NCBI GenBank assembly: GCA_947462725.1
Contig: CANHPZ010000006.1
Location: 1-39,153, forward strand
Length of the DNA: 39,153 nucleotides
Direction of reading: 5' to 3'
Source of the DNA: Flavobacteriales bacterium
GTDB taxonomy: Bacteria > Bacteroidota > Bacteroidia > Flavobacteriales_D > Sanyastnellaceae
Shown here: positions 8,339 through 39,153 of the stretch, one piece after another
Layout of the letters: each line of letters begins with the position of its first letter
How positions within the stretch are numbered: the stretch's first letter is position 1
The notes under the pieces: model-generated
Told to the model about the DNA's origin: nothing
What the model saw: only the letters and a program-made list of their open reading frames with translations
Databases searched by the model: none
Made by a program: the position numbers and the translations under genes

Positions 8339-8478
8339 GTGAATCGGTTAATAGCTTAGGAACAATGAGAATATTAATTAGTTCACACACCTGCTTAATC
8401 AGCTCAAATGCATATTATGTTTTGACATTTCGTTTCGAAAAAGATTTGATCAACTCTGCAAATTATCTTCGTGCCCTG

Positions 8479-10860
8479 ATGAACTACCTACTTCGCACTC
8501 TAATCCTCGTAACGCTTTGTCTATACTCGTTCTGTTCGACACTGGCGCAAACGGCTTTGGTGCAAATCATTCACAACAGCGCCGACACTTCCATTTCAAC
8601 AGTTGATGTATGGCTCAACGATGAGCGCGTTGCGGAAAATCTGGCCTTCCATTATGCCACGGCATTCCTGACGCTCAATGCTACAGACTCGGCAGATTGG
8701 GCCCTCCGGAATTCGGGCGATTCTTTAGCAATCCCTGCATTAATTACGTGGAATATGCCACTTGCCGCTGCAACTAAGCACATTGTTGTCATCAACGGGG
8801 TTACCGATTCAACCCTTTACCACCCATACATACCCTTGCGTCTCGACCACAGAAGCGAAGCCATGGACTTGAGCGCCTCTTCAGCGAGTATCGACATCAC
8901 CTTTTGTCATGGCATTACCGATATCGATAGCATCAACATTGCCGAAACAGCGCTGTTCCAACTCACCGCATTCGAAGATGTCGCGATTGGTGAATTTACC
9001 GATTACCTCAACGTATTCACGGCCGATTATGCACTGGGAATTACCAACGCATCGGATAGCGCGCTGCTGGGCGACTTCAACGCACCGTTCAGTTCATTGC
9101 TTTGGGCGGGAAAAGCAATCACAGTTGTTTCCGGAGGCTTCTTCAATCAAACACTCAACAATAACGGAAGCGCCATGGGTATGTGGGCCACCACTCGCTC
9201 AGGTGGACCCATGGTATGCCTACAACCCAATGCGCTCAATCTCTCCACGCAAGTGCAACTCATTCATAACTCGCCCAACGGAGCTGCCGCAAGTGTTGAC
9301 ATCACAGTCAATGGTAATCCATGGCTTTCAGATTTGAGTGTTCATAATGCCACACCATTCATACCATTTCCCGCCGGTCAAGATGCCGTAATAACCATTC
9401 ACTCGAACATCACACTAGGACCTATTGACTCCATCTGGACCGACACCTTGCGACTGAATAGCGGGGTTAATTATCAATTGTTTTTCATTGGATCGGGAGA
9501 CATTGCCGCCCCCTTCGATTTGATCGCCAATCCCTATTTACAAGAAGCTCTTTCAAACATCGACTCCCTGAGCGTACAATGTTTCCATGGAGCTGAATGC
9601 TACGACAGCATTGCCATTTCCACCGACACGCTGCTTCAATTGCCGTTGATTTCCACATTAAGCTATGCAGCTATTTCCGCCCCGCAAACTGTGGCCGCAC
9701 TTCGTGAAGAATGGATTTTATTTTCGACAAACGACAGTATCATTACCTATGACGTACCCCTTCAAAACAGCATCTGGCAAGGCCATGCGCTCACCTGCGT
9801 GACCTTTGGAAATGTCTTGAGCAATACCTTCAGCACCTGGCTCACCACAGAGGAAGGCGGTGAAATGTATGCCCTGCAGCCGCTCATCATTCCTCTTCCC
9901 CCGGTATTTGCACAAGCACAGTTCATTCATGCTAGCGCCGACAATTTTCTTCAGGCTGTAGACATTTACATCAACGACTCGCTCTATATCGATGACTTTG
10001 CATTTCAATCAGCAATGCCATACATACAAATACCGGCAGAAACCGCATTGGACATCGCAGTTACACCAGCGAATGCATCTGATACAACTGGAGCGCTGCT
10101 GCATGCATTCGTCCAACCGGAAGCGGACGCAAACTATCAGCTCATTCTTTGGGGCATTGCATCAGCAACAGGATACAATCCTGCGCAACCACTGCAATTG
10201 GCTATTAACGCCAATGTGCCGCAGGCTCCCTCCGGAAATCTATGCGCCATGGAGTTCTTTCACGGTTCCACCGATGCCGGTCAGGTGAGTATCAACGAAA
10301 GCACAACGCCAATCGTTCCCTTCTTCAACGATGTGTATTCGGGCGATTTTTCATTTCAGAATTTCCTAACGGCTGACCAGGATTATGGCTTGGCGATTTA
10401 TAACGCAGGGGCCAATTTCCTTTACGGCAACTACGCACTGCCTTTACAATCCTGGGGCTTGGCAGGAACAAGCTTTACGATTGTCTCTTGCGGATTTCGC
10501 GGGCCGGCCAACAATAGCGGTGGCGCACCGTTTAAATTAATTGCCGTATTCGCGGACGGAACATCCATCGAATTACCAATTTTCGTCATCGTTGAAGAAG
10601 CTGCAATGGAATCAATGAAGTTTTTCCCCAATCCATGCAACGATGAATTGATGCTCAACTTGCATAAAACTATTGCGGGTAAAACAACACTTCGCATCAT
10701 AGACATAAACGGCGCTGTAAAATGGCAGGAAACAATCAATGCGGCAATGCACAATGAAAACATTCATATCTCCACGAGCACATTAACCACTGGCTACTAC
10801 CGGTTAGAAGCCATTGCCGACGGCTATTATGCGTCGAAACCACTCATCATACATCATTAA
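8479..10860 (+). CDS. Secreted DUF4397-like repeat protein with T9SS-type C-terminal sorting domain
   Basis: Signal peptide MNYLLRTLILVTLCLYSFCSTLAQ; repeats VQIIHNSADTSISTVDVWLN, VQLIHNSPNGAAASVDITVN, AQFIHASADNFLQAVDIYIN; C-term FFPNPCNDEL...TTLRIIDINGAVKW...LTTGYYRLEA. Confidence 0.82.
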   Translation: MNYLLRTLILVTLCLYSFCSTLAQTALVQIIHNSADTSISTVDVWLNDERVAENLAFHYATAFLTLNATDSADWALRNSGDSLAIPALITWNMPLAAATKHIVVINGVTDSTLYHPYIPLRLDHRSEAMDLSASSASIDITFCHGITDIDSINIAETALFQLTAFEDVAIGEFTDYLNVFTADYALGITNASDSALLGDFNAPFSSLLWAGKAITVVSGGFFNQTLNNNGSAMGMWATTRSGGPMVCLQPNALNLSTQVQLIHNSPNGAAASVDITVNGNPWLSDLSVHNATPFIPFPAGQDAVITIHSNITLGPIDSIWTDTLRLNSGVNYQLFFIGSGDIAAPFDLIANPYLQEALSNIDSLSVQCFHGAECYDSIAISTDTLLQLPLISTLSYAAISAPQTVAALREEWILFSTNDSIITYDVPLQNSIWQGHALTCVTFGNVLSNTFSTWLTTEEGGEMYALQPLIIPLPPVFAQAQFIHASADNFLQAVDIYINDSLYIDDFAFQSAMPYIQIPAETALDIAVTPANASDTTGALLHAFVQPEADANYQLILWGIASATGYNPAQPLQLAINANVPQAPSGNLCAMEFFHGSTDAGQVSINESTTPIVPFFNDVYSGDFSFQNFLTADQDYGLAIYNAGANFLYGNYALPLQSWGLAGTSFTIVSCGFRGPANNSGGAPFKLIAVFADGTSIELPIFVIVEEAAMESMKFFPNPCNDELMLNLHKTIAGKTTLRIIDINGAVKWQETINAAMHNENIHISTSTLTTGYYRLEAIADGYYASKPLIIHH

Positions 10861-17925: not shown

Positions 17926-18081
17926 AGTCACAAAAAAACTAACTCTAGAAAAAAACCATATTCCAATTTGTAATATCCTATGCCACATCGGCAAGACTGC
18001 GATGCTCAATGGCACAACATCCTAAGGAATAAGATTCATCTGACTCAAAAACCGCAATGCGCTAACTTTACGGCAACGCTT

Positions 18082-19737
18082 ATGAAAAACATCCTCCTTG
18101 CATTCGCATTGCTTACAACAGCAGATGTTGCACTATCTCAAAACATCAATCTGCGCATCAATGAAATCGTGACTAAAAACAGCACGATTGCCATGGATGA
18201 TTTCTTCGAATTCGACGACTGGATTGAAATCTACAATCCGCCTGGAAGCCCCATCACCAACCTCGCAGGCTACTACCTCAGCGACAATCCCGACAGCCTC
18301 ACTAAATGGCAAATACCTGCTGATGACGCAGGCATCACAACCGTGCTTCCCAACAATTTCATCATACTCTGGATCGACAACGACTATGACAATCTCACCT
18401 CACAGGGACCAGCGCATAATGCAGGTTTTACACTGAATAGCGACGGCGAGATGATTCTATTAACGGCGCCTGACGGCACCACTATCATCGATAGCACATC
18501 GTTCCCTGAAATGGCAACCGACATCAGCTGGGGACGTTCATGCGATGGGTGCGCGCAATGGCAATACTTCAACAACGTGACATTCGAAGACAACAACTTC
18601 GAAACACAAGCCAACGAACTGCTGTTCGTCAATGAGGTGCAACCGCTCAACACGTCCACATACCGAGATTTACAAGGGGAATACGATCCGTGGATAGAAA
18701 TTTACAACCCCAACAACCATCAAGTCAATTTGGCGAATTACCGCATTTCCATTGATGGCCAAACTGCCTGGCAAATACCCAACACGCGCCCCGCCCGCAC
18801 AGTTCTTCCCGCGCAAAGCTTCATGCTCATTTGGTGCGACAACGACCTTGCTGACGATGTCAACCACAGTCCACTTTCGCTTCCGGCAGCTGGTGGCGTA
18901 ATTCAGATGACATCGCCTGATGGAACAATCACAACCGACACATACACCTATCCTTCAGTTGCAGTTAATGTTAGCTGGGGGCGCGCAACCGATGGCGCAT
19001 CCAACAGCATCGAGTTCGGCACACCAACACCCACTGTAACCAATCAACTCGTAGTCATTCAACCGGAAAACATAGTCATCAACGAACTCCTTTCCGCCAA
19101 TCAAACCGGCATCATCGATAATATGGGCGAACTTGAAGATTGGTTTGAAATCTACAACCCAAACTCATATGCCATTGACTTGAGCGGCTACTACTGCAGC
19201 GATGATCCAGAGGTGCGTAACAAATGGGTGATACCCTCTACATTCCCCGATAGCGTTACCGTACCCGCAAATGGATGGCTACTGTTTTGGGCCGATTCCG
19301 ATCAGCAACAGGGCGTGCGCCACGCAGATTTTCGACTATCCAACAACGGCGAATACCTCAGTATCGCTAGTCCCGATGGCTACACACTCGCCGATGAAAT
19401 CCAATGGAACTACATCGCGCCTGACACATCCTTTGGACGCCTTACCGACGGTGCAAATGATTGGGTGCTTTTCGTTGTTTCAACACCAGAAACATCCAAC
19501 AACCAAGGAACGATAAGCGTTCTTGAAAACAACTCAACAACAGTATTTGCATACCCAAATCCAGCAGACGAAATCATCAATTTCAGTTCAGCCATATGCG
19601 CAACGGTGAATGATGCATGCGGTCAGGTAATTGCTACCATTAACAACCAGCGCTATTTCGAAATGAGCACATTGAAATCTGGCATATATGTGATCCGCAC
19701 CTCTGATGCCAAAACGCTGCGCATCATAAAGCACTAA
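18082..19737 (+). CDS. Secreted lamin-tail-domain repeat protein with T9SS-type C-terminal sorting domain
   Basis: Signal peptide MKNILLAFALLTTADVALSQ; three LTD-like repeats (WIEIYNPPGS..., WIEIYNPNNH..., WFEIYNPNSY...); C-term AYPNPADEIINFS...LKSGIYVIRT. Confidence 0.85.
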   Translation: MKNILLAFALLTTADVALSQNINLRINEIVTKNSTIAMDDFFEFDDWIEIYNPPGSPITNLAGYYLSDNPDSLTKWQIPADDAGITTVLPNNFIILWIDNDYDNLTSQGPAHNAGFTLNSDGEMILLTAPDGTTIIDSTSFPEMATDISWGRSCDGCAQWQYFNNVTFEDNNFETQANELLFVNEVQPLNTSTYRDLQGEYDPWIEIYNPNNHQVNLANYRISIDGQTAWQIPNTRPARTVLPAQSFMLIWCDNDLADDVNHSPLSLPAAGGVIQMTSPDGTITTDTYTYPSVAVNVSWGRATDGASNSIEFGTPTPTVTNQLVVIQPENIVINELLSANQTGIIDNMGELEDWFEIYNPNSYAIDLSGYYCSDDPEVRNKWVIPSTFPDSVTVPANGWLLFWADSDQQQGVRHADFRLSNNGEYLSIASPDGYTLADEIQWNYIAPDTSFGRLTDGANDWVLFVVSTPETSNNQGTISVLENNSTTVFAYPNPADEIINFSSAICATVNDACGQVIATINNQRYFEMSTLKSGIYVIRTSDAKTLRIIKH

Positions 19738-31235: not shown

Positions 31236-34200
31236 ATGAATTTCTTTACGAATTCGTGCTCAGCAATTGTTGGTGGCGTTGAGGTCTTCAATGCCCGCTT
31301 CCTGAATGCCTCCAAGGCATTGTTTTTCTGTTGTATGGTTATGCTATGGGGTGGCTCTTTTGCTACGGCCCAATCTGACAGTACTGCTTCCTTATCTACC
31401 GAACTACGCGATAGCGAAAACTCGGACAACAACGACGGCGACAACAACGATGGTGACGGTGGCGACGACAACGACGGTGGCGACAACGGCGATGGCAACA
31501 ACGACGGTGACGACAACGGCAATAATTCAGTGGCAATCTGCCACCAGCTCGGCAACGGTGGCTCCATCACGATTTATGTGAATGAGTCGGCAGTGCCTGC
31601 CCACCTCAATCACGGTGATGCGCTGGGTGCTTGTGACGGCGGCGAAAACTCTGAGACGCCATGCACAATCTCATTGAATGTAGTATGTCCGGAAGATGTA
31701 ACTGTAGAATGCGGCCAAGAAGCCAATTTCGAATTTACAGGTACGCCAGGTATAAGCGGTGAGTTTTGCTCTTACCGCCTAAACATGACACACAGCGATC
31801 AAATCCTCTCATGCTCACCATGCGGAAAAGTAATTTCCCGCACATGGGTTATTTGGCTTTCTAGATCAAATAATGATGGCGGTGGAGATGATTCAGATGG
31901 TTCAGATGATTCAGATGGCGGAGAAGGAGATAGAACTTCTGAAGTTATTCAACTTCCTTCCTACACCTGCACACAAATCATCACTTCTATTGACACTCAG
32001 GGACCATCAATTTACGGCCTTGACGGTGACCTTTCTGTGCAATGTATCGATGAAATTTACTACCAAGATGCGACTGCAGCTGATGGTTGCAGCGGTGAAA
32101 CAACAGTAGCCAATTGGAGAAGCCAAACCGGCGAGCCAACAAATCGTTGCGTTGCCTCAACTGCATTCGGTCCAGGCGCTGATTGGGCAATCTGGTTGCC
32201 AACACTTTCTTCTGCATCAGGAGCTAATTTCGTATTTGATGCCAATGGCGGTCACTTCGACCAATTCGCCGATGGCACTGCCCATTTCTATGGCACTGTG
32301 GTAAATACAGTAAACGCCGATGAGCAATTCATCGTTGACCTGTGGTTTGAAAATAAATCAGGCTGGGATGCTTGGTCTGCTCAAGAACGCAACTACAAGA
32401 ATGACTTGATGCTTGCTTGCGCTACCAATGGTCACGTAAATTGGAATTTCTACGAATTGGTTGGTGGTTTCTCAACGATGACAGGTGCTGGCGCTTTGGC
32501 CGGTGATGTTCTCTACATGTACCACATGCCAAACAACTACTACTTCGGCTTCCAAATTGGCGAAGGTGCTAACAATAAAAACTGTGCTAACGGCATGTCA
32601 GGCTGGTTTACCTACGAAGGTTTCTCCGGCAATGAGCACGTTAGTGGTCATGGTGACGTAAACGTTGACTTGAACTGTGTGCCTGTAAACAACGCGGATT
32701 GCATTCACCATACATCTTTCACAAACTTCTACCGCGCTATTGATGCTTGTGGCCACGCCACAATCGCTTCTCAGCAAATTAACGTATACGACGAAACAGC
32801 ACCTGTATTCAGCAACTGTCCTGAAAGCTTAACTATCGAATGTTCTGACGCTATTCCTGCAATTGCAGAAGGCGTTGAAGCGACTGATAATTGTTCAGGC
32901 GATGTTAACGTTCAATTCCTCGGCGAAGTTGCTGAGGGCGGCCCTTGCTACTCTACTATTACTCGTACCTGGTCTGCCACAGATCTTTGCGGAAACCGCA
33001 GTAACTGTGTGCAGGTTATCACTATTGTTGATACTACTGCTCCTGTTTTGAACAACCTTCCTGAAGAGGAAATAACTGTAGAATGTGATGCTGTTCCAGC
33101 TGCTGCCGGTGTAACCATCAGCGACAATTGCGATATGTACCCTTCGTTGTACTACAACGAGCAGCGTACCGATGGCGACTGTCCTTCATACTACACGCTA
33201 ACCCGCACTTGGTATGGTTATGATCAATGCGAAAATTATTCAGACACTTACACGCAGACTATCCACGTGCAAGACACAACTGCACCGGAATTCGATGCAT
33301 ACGATTTCTACGCTCACATCGAGTGCACAGAGATTCCTGCATTGCTTACTGCGCATGACAATTGCAGCGAAGTGACTGTTGTTCTTGTTGCAGAAACTTT
33401 GAACTCAGGCGGATGCCTCGGCGTATTGCACCGTATTTACCGTGCAACAGACGAATGCAATAACTCTTCAGAAGTTGAACAGTATATCTCAATCTTGGAT
33501 ACTACTGCCCCTGAATTCGTTGTTCTTCCTAATGACACTACCTTAGAGTGTTCAGACGTTGTTTTGGGTGACAATGCTGGTGTTATCGGTATCGACAACT
33601 GTGGTCATGAAGTAGTTATTACTTATTCTGAGCAAATTGTTGCTACAGATGACAACTGCCCAGAGTCTTATGACATCATTCGCACTTGGGTGGCAACAGA
33701 CTACTGCGACAACCAAGCTACAGCTTCTCGCATTACACACGTGCAAGACACTACACGTCCTGTATTCGTAAGCTTCCCACAAGATATGACTTTGAGCTGC
33801 GACCAAGAGATCCCAGCTCCGGTTTATCCTGTTGCCGTTGATAATTGTGATGAAAACGTAGACGTAGCTCTTGGCGAAGACATTATGCCAGGCTCTTGCC
33901 CTCAGAACTACACTATCTACCGCACTTTCCGTGCTTATGATAACTGCATGAACGAAGTTGTTGAAACACAAACTATCACAGTAGTTGACGAAACTGCTCC
34001 GGTATTTGGAGAACAAAACAGCTCATTCACTTACGAGTGCAACACTGAAATCCCTGTAATTGAACCATCAGCTACTGACAATTGTGGTGAAATAACTTTG
34101 AGCTACCGCGATTCAGAAAGTGAAGGCTCTTCTTGCTACTACACAATCAGCCGAATTTGGACTGCAACCGACGAGTGTGGAAATTCATCTGAATTCACAC

Positions 34201-37200
34201 AGTCGATCAATATCCAGGACACTACTGCACCAGTTATCAGTGGTATACAATACATCTATCGCCCTTGCGATGATTATGCTGGCATTTATGTTCAGGTTGC
34301 CGATAACTGCAATGAATACGATGTAGTTTATACTGACGAAACGGTTTCTGGCTCTTGCGCAGGTAATATTATGCGTCACTATGTTGCTACTGACGTTTGT
34401 GGCAATGCTTCAGCTGAATTCATTCAAATCATCCACTTGAGTGACGAGGTTGCTCCGGTAATTGTGAGCCAAACAGCTGACATGACCGTTGAATGTGGAA
34501 ACGAGTACTCTGTTGAGCCAGCTCAATTCGCTGACAACTGTGATCAAGAATTGGAAATCTCTTCTGATTTCAACAGCGAAAATGATGGTTGCACAACGAC
34601 CAACACGTACACTTGGACTGCTACTGACCATTGCAACAATACAACTACGGCTACTACAGTTGTAACTATCATTGACACTACCAACCCATACTTCACTGCA
34701 TTGCCAGAGAACGTTACCATCAATTGCGATGAAACAATCCCTGGATACGGTGTTTATAGCGCTGCAGACAACTGTGACAGCGAAGTGAGTGTTGCTGTGA
34801 GTGAGTCTAGAGTTGACGGCTCATGCCCACAAAGCTACCGATTGTTGCGTGTTTACCGTGCAACGGATGATTGCGGCAACGAAGCTGTTGAACTACGCTA
34901 TGTTGATGTGGTGGATGCACAAGCTCCATCATTCGGTGAGGAAGCTGCTTTCTACGAATATGAGTGTGGCACTGAAATCCCTGCTATTCAGCCTGAAGCT
35001 ATCGACAACTGTGATCTCGAGCTTTCTTACAGCTACCAAGATGGTGATGTATGGGTTGACGGTTGCACTAGCGGTTTCAACCGTGAGTGGTCTGCTACAG
35101 ATGACTGCGGTAACGTAGGTTACTTCAACCAGGGCATCCGCATCGTTGATACTCATGCTCCTGTTTTGAATGCTTATGACATGCAAATCGAAATGCCTTG
35201 CGACAATGTAAGCAACGAGATTATGATCTCTGCAACAGATTGCAATGACGTAATCATCACTTTCAATGACGAGTATGTAAGCGGTGCTTGCGCCGGCCGT
35301 ATCATACGCACTTACTCTGTAAGCGATGTTTGCGGAAACCGCACTATGGGATTGATTCAACAGTTCATCACTTTGATTGACGTTACTGCTCCTACAGTTG
35401 CTATTGCTCCTGCAGATACAACTATCGAATGTGGTCAAGAAATCCCATCATACTCACCAGTATGGATGGATAACTGTGACGACGAATTGGAGACAAGCGC
35501 TATCTCTGGAATCGCCCAGGACAACTGCACTTCAATCATTTCTCAGTCCTGGACTGCTGTTGACCATTGCGGCAACACGACTACTGTTTCACGTTCAATT
35601 ACTATTGTTGACAGCACTGCTCCAGTGTTCACTTCATTCCCACAAGATGAAAACCGTGAGTGCACGCAGGCTGATGTAGTTGCTATTGCTACTGCTGAAG
35701 ACGCTTGCTCAGAAGCTGTTATTTCACATAGCGATGTAATCCTTGGCGGTAATTGCGCCTCTAGCTACACCATCGTGCGCACCTACCGTGCAACTGATGT
35801 TTGTGGCAACTACTCTGAGTATGTTCAGCACATCAACGTTAGCGACAACTATGGTCCATACTGGGGTGAAAACACAAGCTCATTCGTATACGAATGCGGA
35901 TCTGATGTTCAAGTAATTGCTCCTAACGCTTCTGACCTTTGCAGCGCATTCAGCATGGATTACACTGACGGTGCTTCATGGACAGAAGGTTGCAACAGTG
36001 GCTTTAACCGCACATGGATTGCAGTTGATGCTTGCGGTAACGCTAGCGAGTCATTCGTACAGCACATCAGCTTCGAAGACACTACTGCGCCTTCACTCAG
36101 CGGCTGCGCTCAAGACCTCGTGTTGGGCTGCAACGACGAAGTTCCTGCTCCTGCTGATGTAACCGCATATGACTCTTGCGACGAAGATGTACAGCTCTAC
36201 TTCGAAGAGACAATAAGTGGTGATGTTCCTGCTGAAGGTTCAATTGCTGACTGTGACTTGATCACTCCTGCTCGCGCTGCCGGTAACCCATGCGGATACC
36301 CATACGACTGGTCAATGGCTATGTTCAACATGCCAACTGCTCACCGCTGGTATAAGGTAGTAGGTGGAAACTTGGTACAATACCCAGGCGGTTCATTGCA
36401 CTTGGTTGCTCAACTTGAAAACGTAATGAACCCAGGTACTGGTTGGAACGTTGATGTAAACTTCAGCGGTGGAATGGATTGGGCTGCTTGGTCTACTCAA
36501 GGCTTCCCAACTAGCTTCAAAGCTGACTGCGGTGCTGAAGATGAAAACTTCGCTTCATGGACTTACTTCTTGTTGCAAGCCGGTCCTGGCGCTGAATTGC
36601 AAGGTTACGGTGCTTACCAAGGTTCTATGTTGAACTTGGTTCACGCTCCTGCCAACAACTACTTCGGCTTCCAATTGGGTGATGGCGCTAACAACTACAA
36701 CGGTGCCGACAATGGCTTCGGTGGTTGGTTCAGCTACAGCGGTGTTTTCCGCACTCAATATGAAGATCAACTTCAGAATGTAAGCGGCGCAGGTGACTTG
36801 GCTTTCGAACTTGATTGCTGCCCAGACTACACTATCGAGCGCACTTGGACTGCAATCGATTGCTCAGGCAACATGGCTTCTTGCTCACAAACTATCAGCT
36901 TCGACAGCAGTGTTTCAAGCAGCAACGGTGGCAGCGCTACTATCGCTTCTGAAGCAGTTGTTTCAGGAAAAGTTAGCAGCACTGTAGCTGTTTCTCCAAA
37001 CCCTGCTAACAGCAATGCTGTGTTCACTTTCAAAGCCGCCTATGCCGCTAAGACTTCACTCGAAGTGCTTGACATGACAGGTAAGAAAGTAGCTGACATA
37101 TTCATGGGAACTGTTGAAGCTGGTGCTTCATACAATGTGAACTTCAACGTTGGCGACCTCGCTACCGGTGTTTACACATATCGCTTGATCAATGGCACGG

Positions 37201-37235
37201 ATGTTAAGATCGATCGCTTGATCATTAACAAATAA
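31236..37235 (+). CDS. Giant (1999 aa) secreted four-Cys HYR-like repeat protein with T9SS-type C-terminal sorting domain
   Basis: About 17 modules of the form xxC...IP...ATDNC...GxCxxxYTIxRTWxATDxCGN...xIxVxDTTAPxF; Asp/Gly/Asn-rich linker; C-term VSPNPANSNAVFTFKAAYAAKTSLEVLDMTGKKV...GVYTYRLINGTDVKIDRLIINK. Confidence 0.9.
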   Translation: MNFFTNSCSAIVGGVEVFNARFLNASKALFFCCMVMLWGGSFATAQSDSTASLSTELRDSENSDNNDGDNNDGDGGDDNDGGDNGDGNNDGDDNGNNSVAICHQLGNGGSITIYVNESAVPAHLNHGDALGACDGGENSETPCTISLNVVCPEDVTVECGQEANFEFTGTPGISGEFCSYRLNMTHSDQILSCSPCGKVISRTWVIWLSRSNNDGGGDDSDGSDDSDGGEGDRTSEVIQLPSYTCTQIITSIDTQGPSIYGLDGDLSVQCIDEIYYQDATAADGCSGETTVANWRSQTGEPTNRCVASTAFGPGADWAIWLPTLSSASGANFVFDANGGHFDQFADGTAHFYGTVVNTVNADEQFIVDLWFENKSGWDAWSAQERNYKNDLMLACATNGHVNWNFYELVGGFSTMTGAGALAGDVLYMYHMPNNYYFGFQIGEGANNKNCANGMSGWFTYEGFSGNEHVSGHGDVNVDLNCVPVNNADCIHHTSFTNFYRAIDACGHATIASQQINVYDETAPVFSNCPESLTIECSDAIPAIAEGVEATDNCSGDVNVQFLGEVAEGGPCYSTITRTWSATDLCGNRSNCVQVITIVDTTAPVLNNLPEEEITVECDAVPAAAGVTISDNCDMYPSLYYNEQRTDGDCPSYYTLTRTWYGYDQCENYSDTYTQTIHVQDTTAPEFDAYDFYAHIECTEIPALLTAHDNCSEVTVVLVAETLNSGGCLGVLHRIYRATDECNNSSEVEQYISILDTTAPEFVVLPNDTTLECSDVVLGDNAGVIGIDNCGHEVVITYSEQIVATDDNCPESYDIIRTWVATDYCDNQATASRITHVQDTTRPVFVSFPQDMTLSCDQEIPAPVYPVAVDNCDENVDVALGEDIMPGSCPQNYTIYRTFRAYDNCMNEVVETQTITVVDETAPVFGEQNSSFTYECNTEIPVIEPSATDNCGEITLSYRDSESEGSSCYYTISRIWTATDECGNSSEFTQSINIQDTTAPVISGIQYIYRPCDDYAGIYVQVADNCNEYDVVYTDETVSGSCAGNIMRHYVATDVCGNASAEFIQIIHLSDEVAPVIVSQTADMTVECGNEYSVEPAQFADNCDQELEISSDFNSENDGCTTTNTYTWTATDHCNNTTTATTVVTIIDTTNPYFTALPENVTINCDETIPGYGVYSAADNCDSEVSVAVSESRVDGSCPQSYRLLRVYRATDDCGNEAVELRYVDVVDAQAPSFGEEAAFYEYECGTEIPAIQPEAIDNCDLELSYSYQDGDVWVDGCTSGFNREWSATDDCGNVGYFNQGIRIVDTHAPVLNAYDMQIEMPCDNVSNEIMISATDCNDVIITFNDEYVSGACAGRIIRTYSVSDVCGNRTMGLIQQFITLIDVTAPTVAIAPADTTIECGQEIPSYSPVWMDNCDDELETSAISGIAQDNCTSIISQSWTAVDHCGNTTTVSRSITIVDSTAPVFTSFPQDENRECTQADVVAIATAEDACSEAVISHSDVILGGNCASSYTIVRTYRATDVCGNYSEYVQHINVSDNYGPYWGENTSSFVYECGSDVQVIAPNASDLCSAFSMDYTDGASWTEGCNSGFNRTWIAVDACGNASESFVQHISFEDTTAPSLSGCAQDLVLGCNDEVPAPADVTAYDSCDEDVQLYFEETISGDVPAEGSIADCDLITPARAAGNPCGYPYDWSMAMFNMPTAHRWYKVVGGNLVQYPGGSLHLVAQLENVMNPGTGWNVDVNFSGGMDWAAWSTQGFPTSFKADCGAEDENFASWTYFLLQAGPGAELQGYGAYQGSMLNLVHAPANNYFGFQLGDGANNYNGADNGFGGWFSYSGVFRTQYEDQLQNVSGAGDLAFELDCCPDYTIERTWTAIDCSGNMASCSQTISFDSSVSSSNGGSATIASEAVVSGKVSSTVAVSPNPANSNAVFTFKAAYAAKTSLEVLDMTGKKVADIFMGTVEAGASYNVNFNVGDLATGVYTYRLINGTDVKIDRLIINK
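31417..31532 (+). repeat. Low-complexity Asp/Asn/Gly-coding degenerate repeat
   Basis: Encodes ENSDNNDGDNNDGDGGDDNDGGDNGDGNNDGDDNGNN. Confidence 0.85.
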
Positions 37236-37487: not shown

Positions 37488-39153
37488 ATGTATCAAAAGT
37501 ACTTTTCTACTACAATGGGATGTGTGAATTTCCTTAGACATTGGAAAGACATATCTCGAAAACTATCGCTGGTAGCGTTTGCTATCATCGCTACTGGGAT
37601 GAGCACTTCAGCTATCGGCCAATTAGCCACGCTGACATGCCCATCTGATGTCGTCCTCGAATGTGGTCAAGACATCAATAATTTTGACCTAACCGGTTAT
37701 CCAAGTTTTACCATTTACGTTGGTGCCGGCCACTCACTCAATTTCAGCGACAATGCAATTGCTAGCGGAGCTTGCTCATCTACTATTGTACGCACCTGGA
37801 CTCTTAGCTTGGAAGAGCTTGGCGGTTTCATAGGATCTTTCCAGTGCACGCAAGTGATTACTGTGAGAGACACCCAAGGACCTGCAATCTCCGGTGTATC
37901 AGACTTGAGCCTCGAGTGCAACCAGGTTGTTCCATTTGCAAATGCTACTGCACTTGACGTGTGTTCTGAAGCTACTGCCACGGTTACAAACTTCGGCAGC
38001 CACTCCGGCCGCGCCGAATCCAAGTGCGTTTCAACAACTGCATTCGGTCCTGGCGCTGATTGGGCAATTTGGTTGCCTGTATTGGCCTCCAATGGAGTTA
38101 CCGCTAGTGCAAACTTCGTGTTTGACGATGAGAACGGCCAATTCGAACAATACGCTGATGGCACTGCTCGTCTGTCTGGACGCATCCTTAACACGGCAAA
38201 CACATCACAGTCTTTCGCTGTTGATTTTTGGTTCAAATCACGCCGCACCTGGAATGAATGGAGCGCACTAGGTCGCAATTTCAAAAACGACTTGAATTTG
38301 GCTTGCGCCGCTAACAATCACGCCGCATGGTCATACTACGAATTGGCTGACGGATTCTCGACCCTTACAGGTCAAGGCGCTCTCAGCGGTGTAACTCTTA
38401 ACCTTTCACATTTGCCTACTAACCACTACTTCGGATTCCAAGTTGGTGAAGGCGCTAACAACAAGAACTGCAGCAATGGTATGTCAGGTTGGTTCAGCTA
38501 TACCGGTATCGTTAACGGAGAAGCTGTAAATGGAAATGGTGACGTTAATATTGACTTGAACTGCACTCCACAGCAATACGAATGCACGAACAATGACCAA
38601 TACACGTATTTGTATCTCGCTCATGATGCTTGCAACAACTACTCTATTGCTAAGCAACTGATCACTATTTTAGATCAAACGGCTCCTACTTTTGACAATT
38701 GCCCTCAAGATTTAAACATTCAGTGCCCTAGCGAAATTGCAAGCCTACCTGTGCCTGCAGTTACTGCTACCGACAATTGCACAGAAGCCGGCTGGCCTGT
38801 GGTGAACTATCTAGGTGAAGCAGTTATCGCAAATGAATATTCAGAGGATGTTAACTGCGAAAAGCACATTACCCGCACTTGGGAAGCTGTTGACTGTATC
38901 GGAAATCGCAGCGTTTGTGTACAGCATATCCATGCAAGAGACACAGAAGCTCCAGTGTTGTACAACCGTCCTGCTGCTGAAATCACAGTTGAGTGCAATG
39001 CTATTCCAGCTGTTCCTACCTTGACTGCTACCGACAATTGCGATCCAAATCCATCAATTTCTTACTACGAACAAATCGAAGAAGGTGATTGCCCAGGTCG
39101 CTACACTATTATCCGCGAATGGGAAGCCGGTGATCGTTGCTACAATTACAGCA
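37488..39153 (+). CDS. Second four-Cys HYR-like repeat surface protein, paralogue of 31236..37235, truncated by the window end
   Basis: Open frame from ATG 37488 to the window end: MYQKYFSTTMGCVNFLRHWKDISRKLSLVAFAIIATGMSTSAIGQLATLTCPSDVVLECGQDINNF...; signal-like N-terminus; shares TAFGPGADWAIWLP and modules with the upstream gene. Absent from the ORF track, presumably because no stop lies in the window. Confidence 0.88.
   Translation, partial: MYQKYFSTTMGCVNFLRHWKDISRKLSLVAFAIIATGMSTSAIGQLATLTCPSDVVLECGQDINNFDLTGYPSFTIYVGAGHSLNFSDNAIASGACSSTIVRTWTLSLEELGGFIGSFQCTQVITVRDTQGPAISGVSDLSLECNQVVPFANATALDVCSEATATVTNFGSHSGRAESKCVSTTAFGPGADWAIWLPVLASNGVTASANFVFDDENGQFEQYADGTARLSGRILNTANTSQSFAVDFWFKSRRTWNEWSALGRNFKNDLNLACAANNHAAWSYYELADGFSTLTGQGALSGVTLNLSHLPTNHYFGFQVGEGANNKNCSNGMSGWFSYTGIVNGEAVNGNGDVNIDLNCTPQQYECTNNDQYTYLYLAHDACNNYSIAKQLITILDQTAPTFDNCPQDLNIQCPSEIASLPVPAVTATDNCTEAGWPVVNYLGEAVIANEYSEDVNCEKHITRTWEAVDCIGNRSVCVQHIHARDTEAPVLYNRPAAEITVECNAIPAVPTLTATDNCDPNPSISYYEQIEEGDCPGRYTIIREWEAGDRCYNYS

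Follow-up and report, generated by a model that had tools for sequence, protein, structure and literature searches.

In the RTX adhesins of gammaproteobacteria, ligand-binding domains bud from split Ig-like domains and binding has been shown for some of them (PMC12077191, PMC10865825). The split-domain units of MpAFP/MpIBP, FrhA and AhLap consist of a compact domain that buds from an Ig-like repeat completed later in the chain, and they are carried on a long repetitive stalk. These adhesins are type I-secreted, and their heads are CBM, PA14, peptide-binding, RTX or vWFA domains. RemA of Flavobacterium johnsoniae, a surface adhesin with type A sorting by the type IX secretion system (T9SS), has a lectin domain and a putative binding module (PMC12618676). 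For giant Bacteroidota adhesins, annotation mostly goes no further than the stalk repeats and so does not reveal their targets.

The DNA described here (the window) is a stretch of 39,153 nucleotides from a Flavobacteriales bacterium (assembly GCA_947462725.1, contig CANHPZ010000006.1) which encodes adhesin-like proteins with an unnamed domain inserted in a stalk repeat. Like the RTX split-domain units, the insert is a compact domain within an Ig-like repeat of a long repetitive stalk; unlike RTX adhesins, the proteins described here have T9SS signals, an unnamed head domain and two subfamilies of it at opposite ends, with a T9SS type A tail instead and no RTX family in the Pfam scan. The likeness to RemA lies in the T9SS type A signal and the putative binding module, although the insert gave no lectin-domain match. 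HYR_4C (PF23237) accounts for the host repeat and for most of the stalk, whereas the insert lies outside this family and is predicted to fold alone. Inserts of this kind also occur in SprB repeat proteins (PF13573) of Aureispira and further Bacteroidota, the window protein having HYR_4C repeats instead. A literature search, thin on subscription journals, found no paper on this nested arrangement in Bacteroidota.

The host adhesin and its interrupted repeat

The host genome comprises 238 contigs (2.5 Mb) and its closest relatives among the genome contigs searched are mostly labelled as Flavobacteriales MAGs, including one of pond origin. The adhesin-like host gene (31236–37235, forward strand, as are all features given below; ORF, Pfam and NCBIfam) encodes 1999 residues with a signal-peptide-like start, acidic linkers, a stalk of 11 HYR_4C stretches in the Pfam scan, and a Por_Secre_tail, the T9SS type A C-terminal sorting domain (36993–37226). 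The latter scored above cut-off both as PF18962 (33.3 bits) and as TIGR04183 (31.5 bits), and the genome also encodes the secretion machinery (SprA_N, 519 bits; T9SS sortase, 1082 bits), which are the features expected of T9SS type A cargo. The protein is a giant and probably secreted adhesin, and its stalk is predicted to be disulfide-stabilised on account of the HYR_4C cysteines. Two other proteins in the window have Por_Secre_tail matches: a DUF4397-repeat protein (8365–10860) with a Por_Secre_tail score above cut-off and a Lamin Tail Domain protein (17980–19737) with a score slightly below it.

Further elements are visible at the N-terminal side of the adhesin. Behind an Asp/Asn/Gly-rich linker, the sequence VAICHQLGNGGSITIYVNESAVPAHLNHGDALGAC (around 31527–31650) resembles a separate small Cys/His module N-terminal to the stalk, and an acidic low-complexity run (NNDGGGDDSDGSDDSDGGEGD, around 31866–31940) lies within the repeat preceding the one that hosts the first insert. 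Downstream of the gene, a tandem paralogous adhesin gene (37488–39152; ORF and Pfam) runs off the contig end. A contig of a congener (CALQJP020000002.1) likewise carries at least three insert-bearing adhesin genes in tandem.

Insert copy 1 spans 178 residues (304–481; 32145–32678) and was delimited by the ORF, genome search, alignment and the AlphaFold model. Its sequence runs RCVASTAFGPGADW...GDVNVDLNC, between the flanks LDGDLSVQCIDEI...TGEPTN before and VPVNNADCIHHTSFTNFYRAIDACGHATIASQQINVYDETAPVF after; the position, sequence and flanks that a first-pass annotation, made from the letters alone, had given for a segment of about 178 residues breaking into an HYR-like module match the ORF. 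The first half of the interrupted HYR-type repeat (31992–32144) holds five predicted host strands and the second half (32679–32837) the last two, as determined from the ORF, the AlphaFold prediction and the joined-flank test described below. Copy 2 (36249–36818; genome search and tree) splits the final HYR-type repeat ahead of the sorting signal, a repeat whose two halves were read from the ORF (36090–36248 and 36819–36902), and copy 3 (38022–38564; genome search) is in the tandem paralogous gene. The three copies counted in the window by the first-pass annotation are all present, but they fall into two position-specific subfamilies, which it had missed: copies 1 and 3 (N-terminal subfamily) share 61% identity and copy 2, for which the search recorded position 36306, shows only 35% and belongs to a second, C-terminal subfamily. 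The host genome contains six copies (E 1.7e-124 to 1.3e-18), these three included, and 163 relatives were found in other genomes, by which a chance resemblance is ruled out.

An HYR repeat that is otherwise complete holds the insert in one of its loops. Using an HYR model built from 15 intact repeats of the host genome, the flanks joined after excision of the insert scored a median of 31.9 bits, vs. 14.4 and 19.7 bits for the separate halves. Among the 116 non-Roseivirga copies, the joined flanks exceeded 15 bits in 98, and in 91 of the 116 they outscored the better half by a margin above 3 bits. Together with the host strands predicted on both sides, these scores describe a split domain, i.e., an Ig-like repeat that takes up an insert and is completed behind it, and they agree with the earlier placement of the unit in one loop of the stalk.

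Predicted fold and relation to named families

The domain alone, modeled with AlphaFold2 from 69 aligned homologs, reached a mean pLDDT of 97.7 and a pTM of 0.91, and the host repeat with the insert (52 homologs) a pLDDT of 94.0 and a pTM of 0.89. The insert is thereby predicted with high confidence to be an independent domain, as foreseen in the first-pass annotation, with an all-beta fold comprising a run of long beta-strands and two short helices. The insertion point falls between host strands five and six; strands are predicted at both ends of the insert, and its placement in one loop would imply adjacent termini. That the insert forms part of the HYR fold is ruled out by the domain-only model and by occurrences outside HYR repeats, and in Pfam it does not score as HYR_4C.

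Searches of Pfam, NCBIfam and PHROGs with copy 1 on its own came up empty, and its matches to PDB sequences were at chance level only. When 69 family members were scanned singly against Pfam and NCBIfam merely scattered weak matches appeared, the commonest being DUF6294 (PF19811; six of the 69 members, best E 0.015, not significant), which did not reach its curated cut-off and had no match in the host genome. Profiles built from these 69 and from nine diverse members retrieved nothing credible from PDB sequences. Membership in a known family therefore finds no support in Pfam, NCBIfam, PHROGs or PDB, with single sequences as well as profiles, and the earlier remark that the insert resembles no domain that could be named holds, no Pfam or CBM family having matched it. 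A viral origin was also rejected: the 29 pattern matches in viral contigs included no relative, and phage matches were at chance level. No viral structure model matched. A possible likeness to PEP-CTERM proteins of other phyla found no support in plasmids, where neither a composed probe nor a remote homolog had a match.

Foldseek comparison of the domain with PDB gave nothing significant, the lowest E being 0.38. Avidin, streptavidin and designed beta-barrels formed a weak cluster among the matches (with probabilities of up to 0.33 and TM values, by target, of up to 0.50), in which avidin-type structures had a best E of 0.50 and a probability of at most 0.23, i.e., no significant match to an avidin-like barrel. 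This cluster hints at a barrel in preference to a sandwich. The first-pass annotation had envisaged a beta-sandwich or lectin-like unit and had proposed a search for carbohydrate-binding modules; no positive evidence for such a unit emerged, and no CBM occurred among the best 50 Foldseek matches or among those to Pfam, NCBIfam and PDB sequences. On these data it is possible, if on balance doubtful, that the insert belongs to a known fold family (e.g., an avidin-like barrel or a known CBM) but has diverged too far for sequence tools to show it. Such an ancestry, which would be compatible with a ligand-binding role, is what the barrel cluster and the weak DUF6294 matches (six of 69 members, not significant) would favour, while the lack of any PDB match below E 0.38 in Foldseek and of anything significant in Pfam, NCBIfam or PDB sequences argues against it. 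Additional helices and about 50 more residues set the insert apart from avidin/streptavidin-type barrels. For the host repeat plus insert, Foldseek ranked two split-domain adhesins, MpAFP and FrhA, first, though not significantly (E 0.011, probability 0.14, TM 0.15); no other split-domain structures were among the matches. This is a ranking that points to analogy and is no evidence of homology.

Positional subfamilies and a candidate binding head

In two-copy Flavobacteriales proteins the first copy lies towards the N-terminus and the second close to the C-terminus, the latter (C-type) being defined by a distance of under 170 residues from the end of the ORF. On a maximum-likelihood tree of 134 copies, the labels N, C and Roseivirga required three changes vs. 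a minimum of two and a shuffled mean of 55, and FastTree returned the same N/C split with a single exception (locus L112). Because the tree separates the copies by position, the split probably predates the diversification of this Flavobacteriales group. No single residue position separates N- from C-type copies at a 70% threshold.

Conservation is higher in the inserts than in the stalk. Between the window protein and its congeners both inserts are 79–82% identical, compared with 67–73% for the stalk and 46–56% for the half of the host repeat before copy 1. Eight columns are invariant in the 69 copies (W77, G114, G120, P129, Q137, G139, W154, and D171) and ten more are conserved in over 90% of them (K85, W100, H127, A142, N143, N146, G150, G153, F155, and G170). 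The core of these columns, GxGANNxN...GxSGWF, is the signature that the first-pass annotation had picked out.

The insert is best explained, at a probability of about 60%, as an uncharacterised mobile ligand-binding head of about 170–180 residues found in large secreted surface proteins of Bacteroidota. This reading is put forward because of the independent fold, the nesting, the recurrence of the domain in different repeats and as free-standing copies, the positional subfamilies, the conservation of the insert above that of the stalk and the presence of T9SS genes, and because of the precedent of RTX adhesins (PMC12077191, PMC10865825), by analogy with which a binding role would be assigned. 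The chain would leave the Ig-like stalk repeat between predicted strands five and six, fold into a self-contained all-beta domain with both ends together and then finish the repeat; being split, the repeat would hold the head sideways off the fibre. In Flavobacteriales the N-type copy would presumably be distal, and the C-type copy, housed in the final repeat ahead of the T9SS signal, would presumably be close to the cell surface; many fibres would be two-headed once the adhesin is displayed. A putative binding site may involve W77, K85, W100, H127, Q137, N143, N144, N146, and W154, and the ligand may be a glycan or other surface polymer. Against a binding head count the failure of structure and sequence searches to link the insert to a known binding domain, the lack of significance of the MpAFP and FrhA matches, the several most-conserved positions that are glycines and may be structural, and the C-type copy, which may sit so near the sorting signal that a distant target is out of reach.

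C-type copies end at a median of 141.5 residues (IQR 137–145) before the ORF end, and this near-constant distance, with the many glycine and aromatic residues among the conserved positions, would suit a ligand-free domain that stiffens, caps or spaces the stalk or helps T9SS cargo to fold or anchor. Such a service to structure or secretion is improbable given that the N-type copy is far from the signal, that the domain occurs in proteins with no detected T9SS type A tail (e.g., loci L173 and L175) and free-standing at N-termini, and that strongly conserved polar residues (N143, N144, N146, K85, and H127) are unexpected for a mere spacer. Little weight is likewise given to the idea that N- and C-type copies bind each other or themselves, crosslinking fibres or the fibres of neighbouring cells with no foreign ligand: the retention of two distinct subfamilies at opposite ends of the same proteins, the up to 12 copies per genome and the tandem adhesin genes would fit it, but a 1629-residue protein (contig C25) has an N-type copy only, solitary copies are found in unrelated proteins and nothing speaks positively for self-binding.

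If the insert is a ligand-binding head, it is one recognisable from sequence, with residue-defined boundaries and occurring in many genomes, which makes the question of adhesin targets testable with an expressible 20-kDa protein. The split-domain rule for finding the binding domains of RTX adhesins may extend to T9SS adhesins as well.

Occurrence of the domain in other hosts

Domain-bearing genomes numbered 104 of 299 in a sample of the order and 7 of 396 in one of the phylum; in a class sample, searched with a more diverse profile, they numbered 22 of 395. These counts come from samples with differing profiles and are not directly comparable. The hosts include at least three kinds of stalk repeat, i.e., HYR_4C, another HYR type (Roseivirga) and SprB repeats (an Aureispira plasmid and several Bacteroidota genomes), and on this distribution of sequences the domain is judged to be mobile across Bacteroidota. 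The spread of relatives across these repeat kinds and as free-standing copies suggests a widespread but unstudied sticky 'head'. A bolder proposal, and a tentative one that is rather unlikely as a whole, is that the inserts form a new family of binding domains, have a fold variant of their own and entered at least three types of stalk repeat independently, providing Flavobacteriales with distal and cell-proximal heads for different targets; T9SS adhesins would then be bivalent linkers.

The search for standalone or nested occurrences proposed in the first-pass annotation yielded both, including a nesting in SprB repeats which that annotation had missed. Nine copies, from the Aureispira plasmid and several other Bacteroidota genomes, sit just behind the first cysteine of an SprB-type repeat. 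Joined flanks outscored both halves in four of the nine, in a test weaker than that for HYR because most of the SprB unit lies downstream; the placement of the other five is based on reading the flanks. In Aureispira anguillae the insert is borne by a 2529-residue SprB-repeat protein (WP_264793653.1; locus L119, 1851–9440) of plasmid pAUEa, and therefore the domain can be plasmid-borne. In Roseivirga some copies lie in a different Ig/HYR-type repeat and in a different loop, others directly behind a signal peptide or beside DUF7467-like sequence.

Free-standing homologs either follow a signal peptide or share their protein with SdrD_B, choice-of-anchor A, PKD or dockerin domains; another free-standing copy (G160) is preceded by a lipoprotein-like start and followed by DUF7467 repeats. 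The domain also stands immediately after a complete DUF4331 domain and ahead of a dockerin-like C-terminus (locus L173, 759–3875), and in Roseivirga and two more distant Bacteroidota genomes (loci L049, L123, and L124) it occurs with DUF7467, matched in Pfam for L124, or with DUF7467-like sequence.
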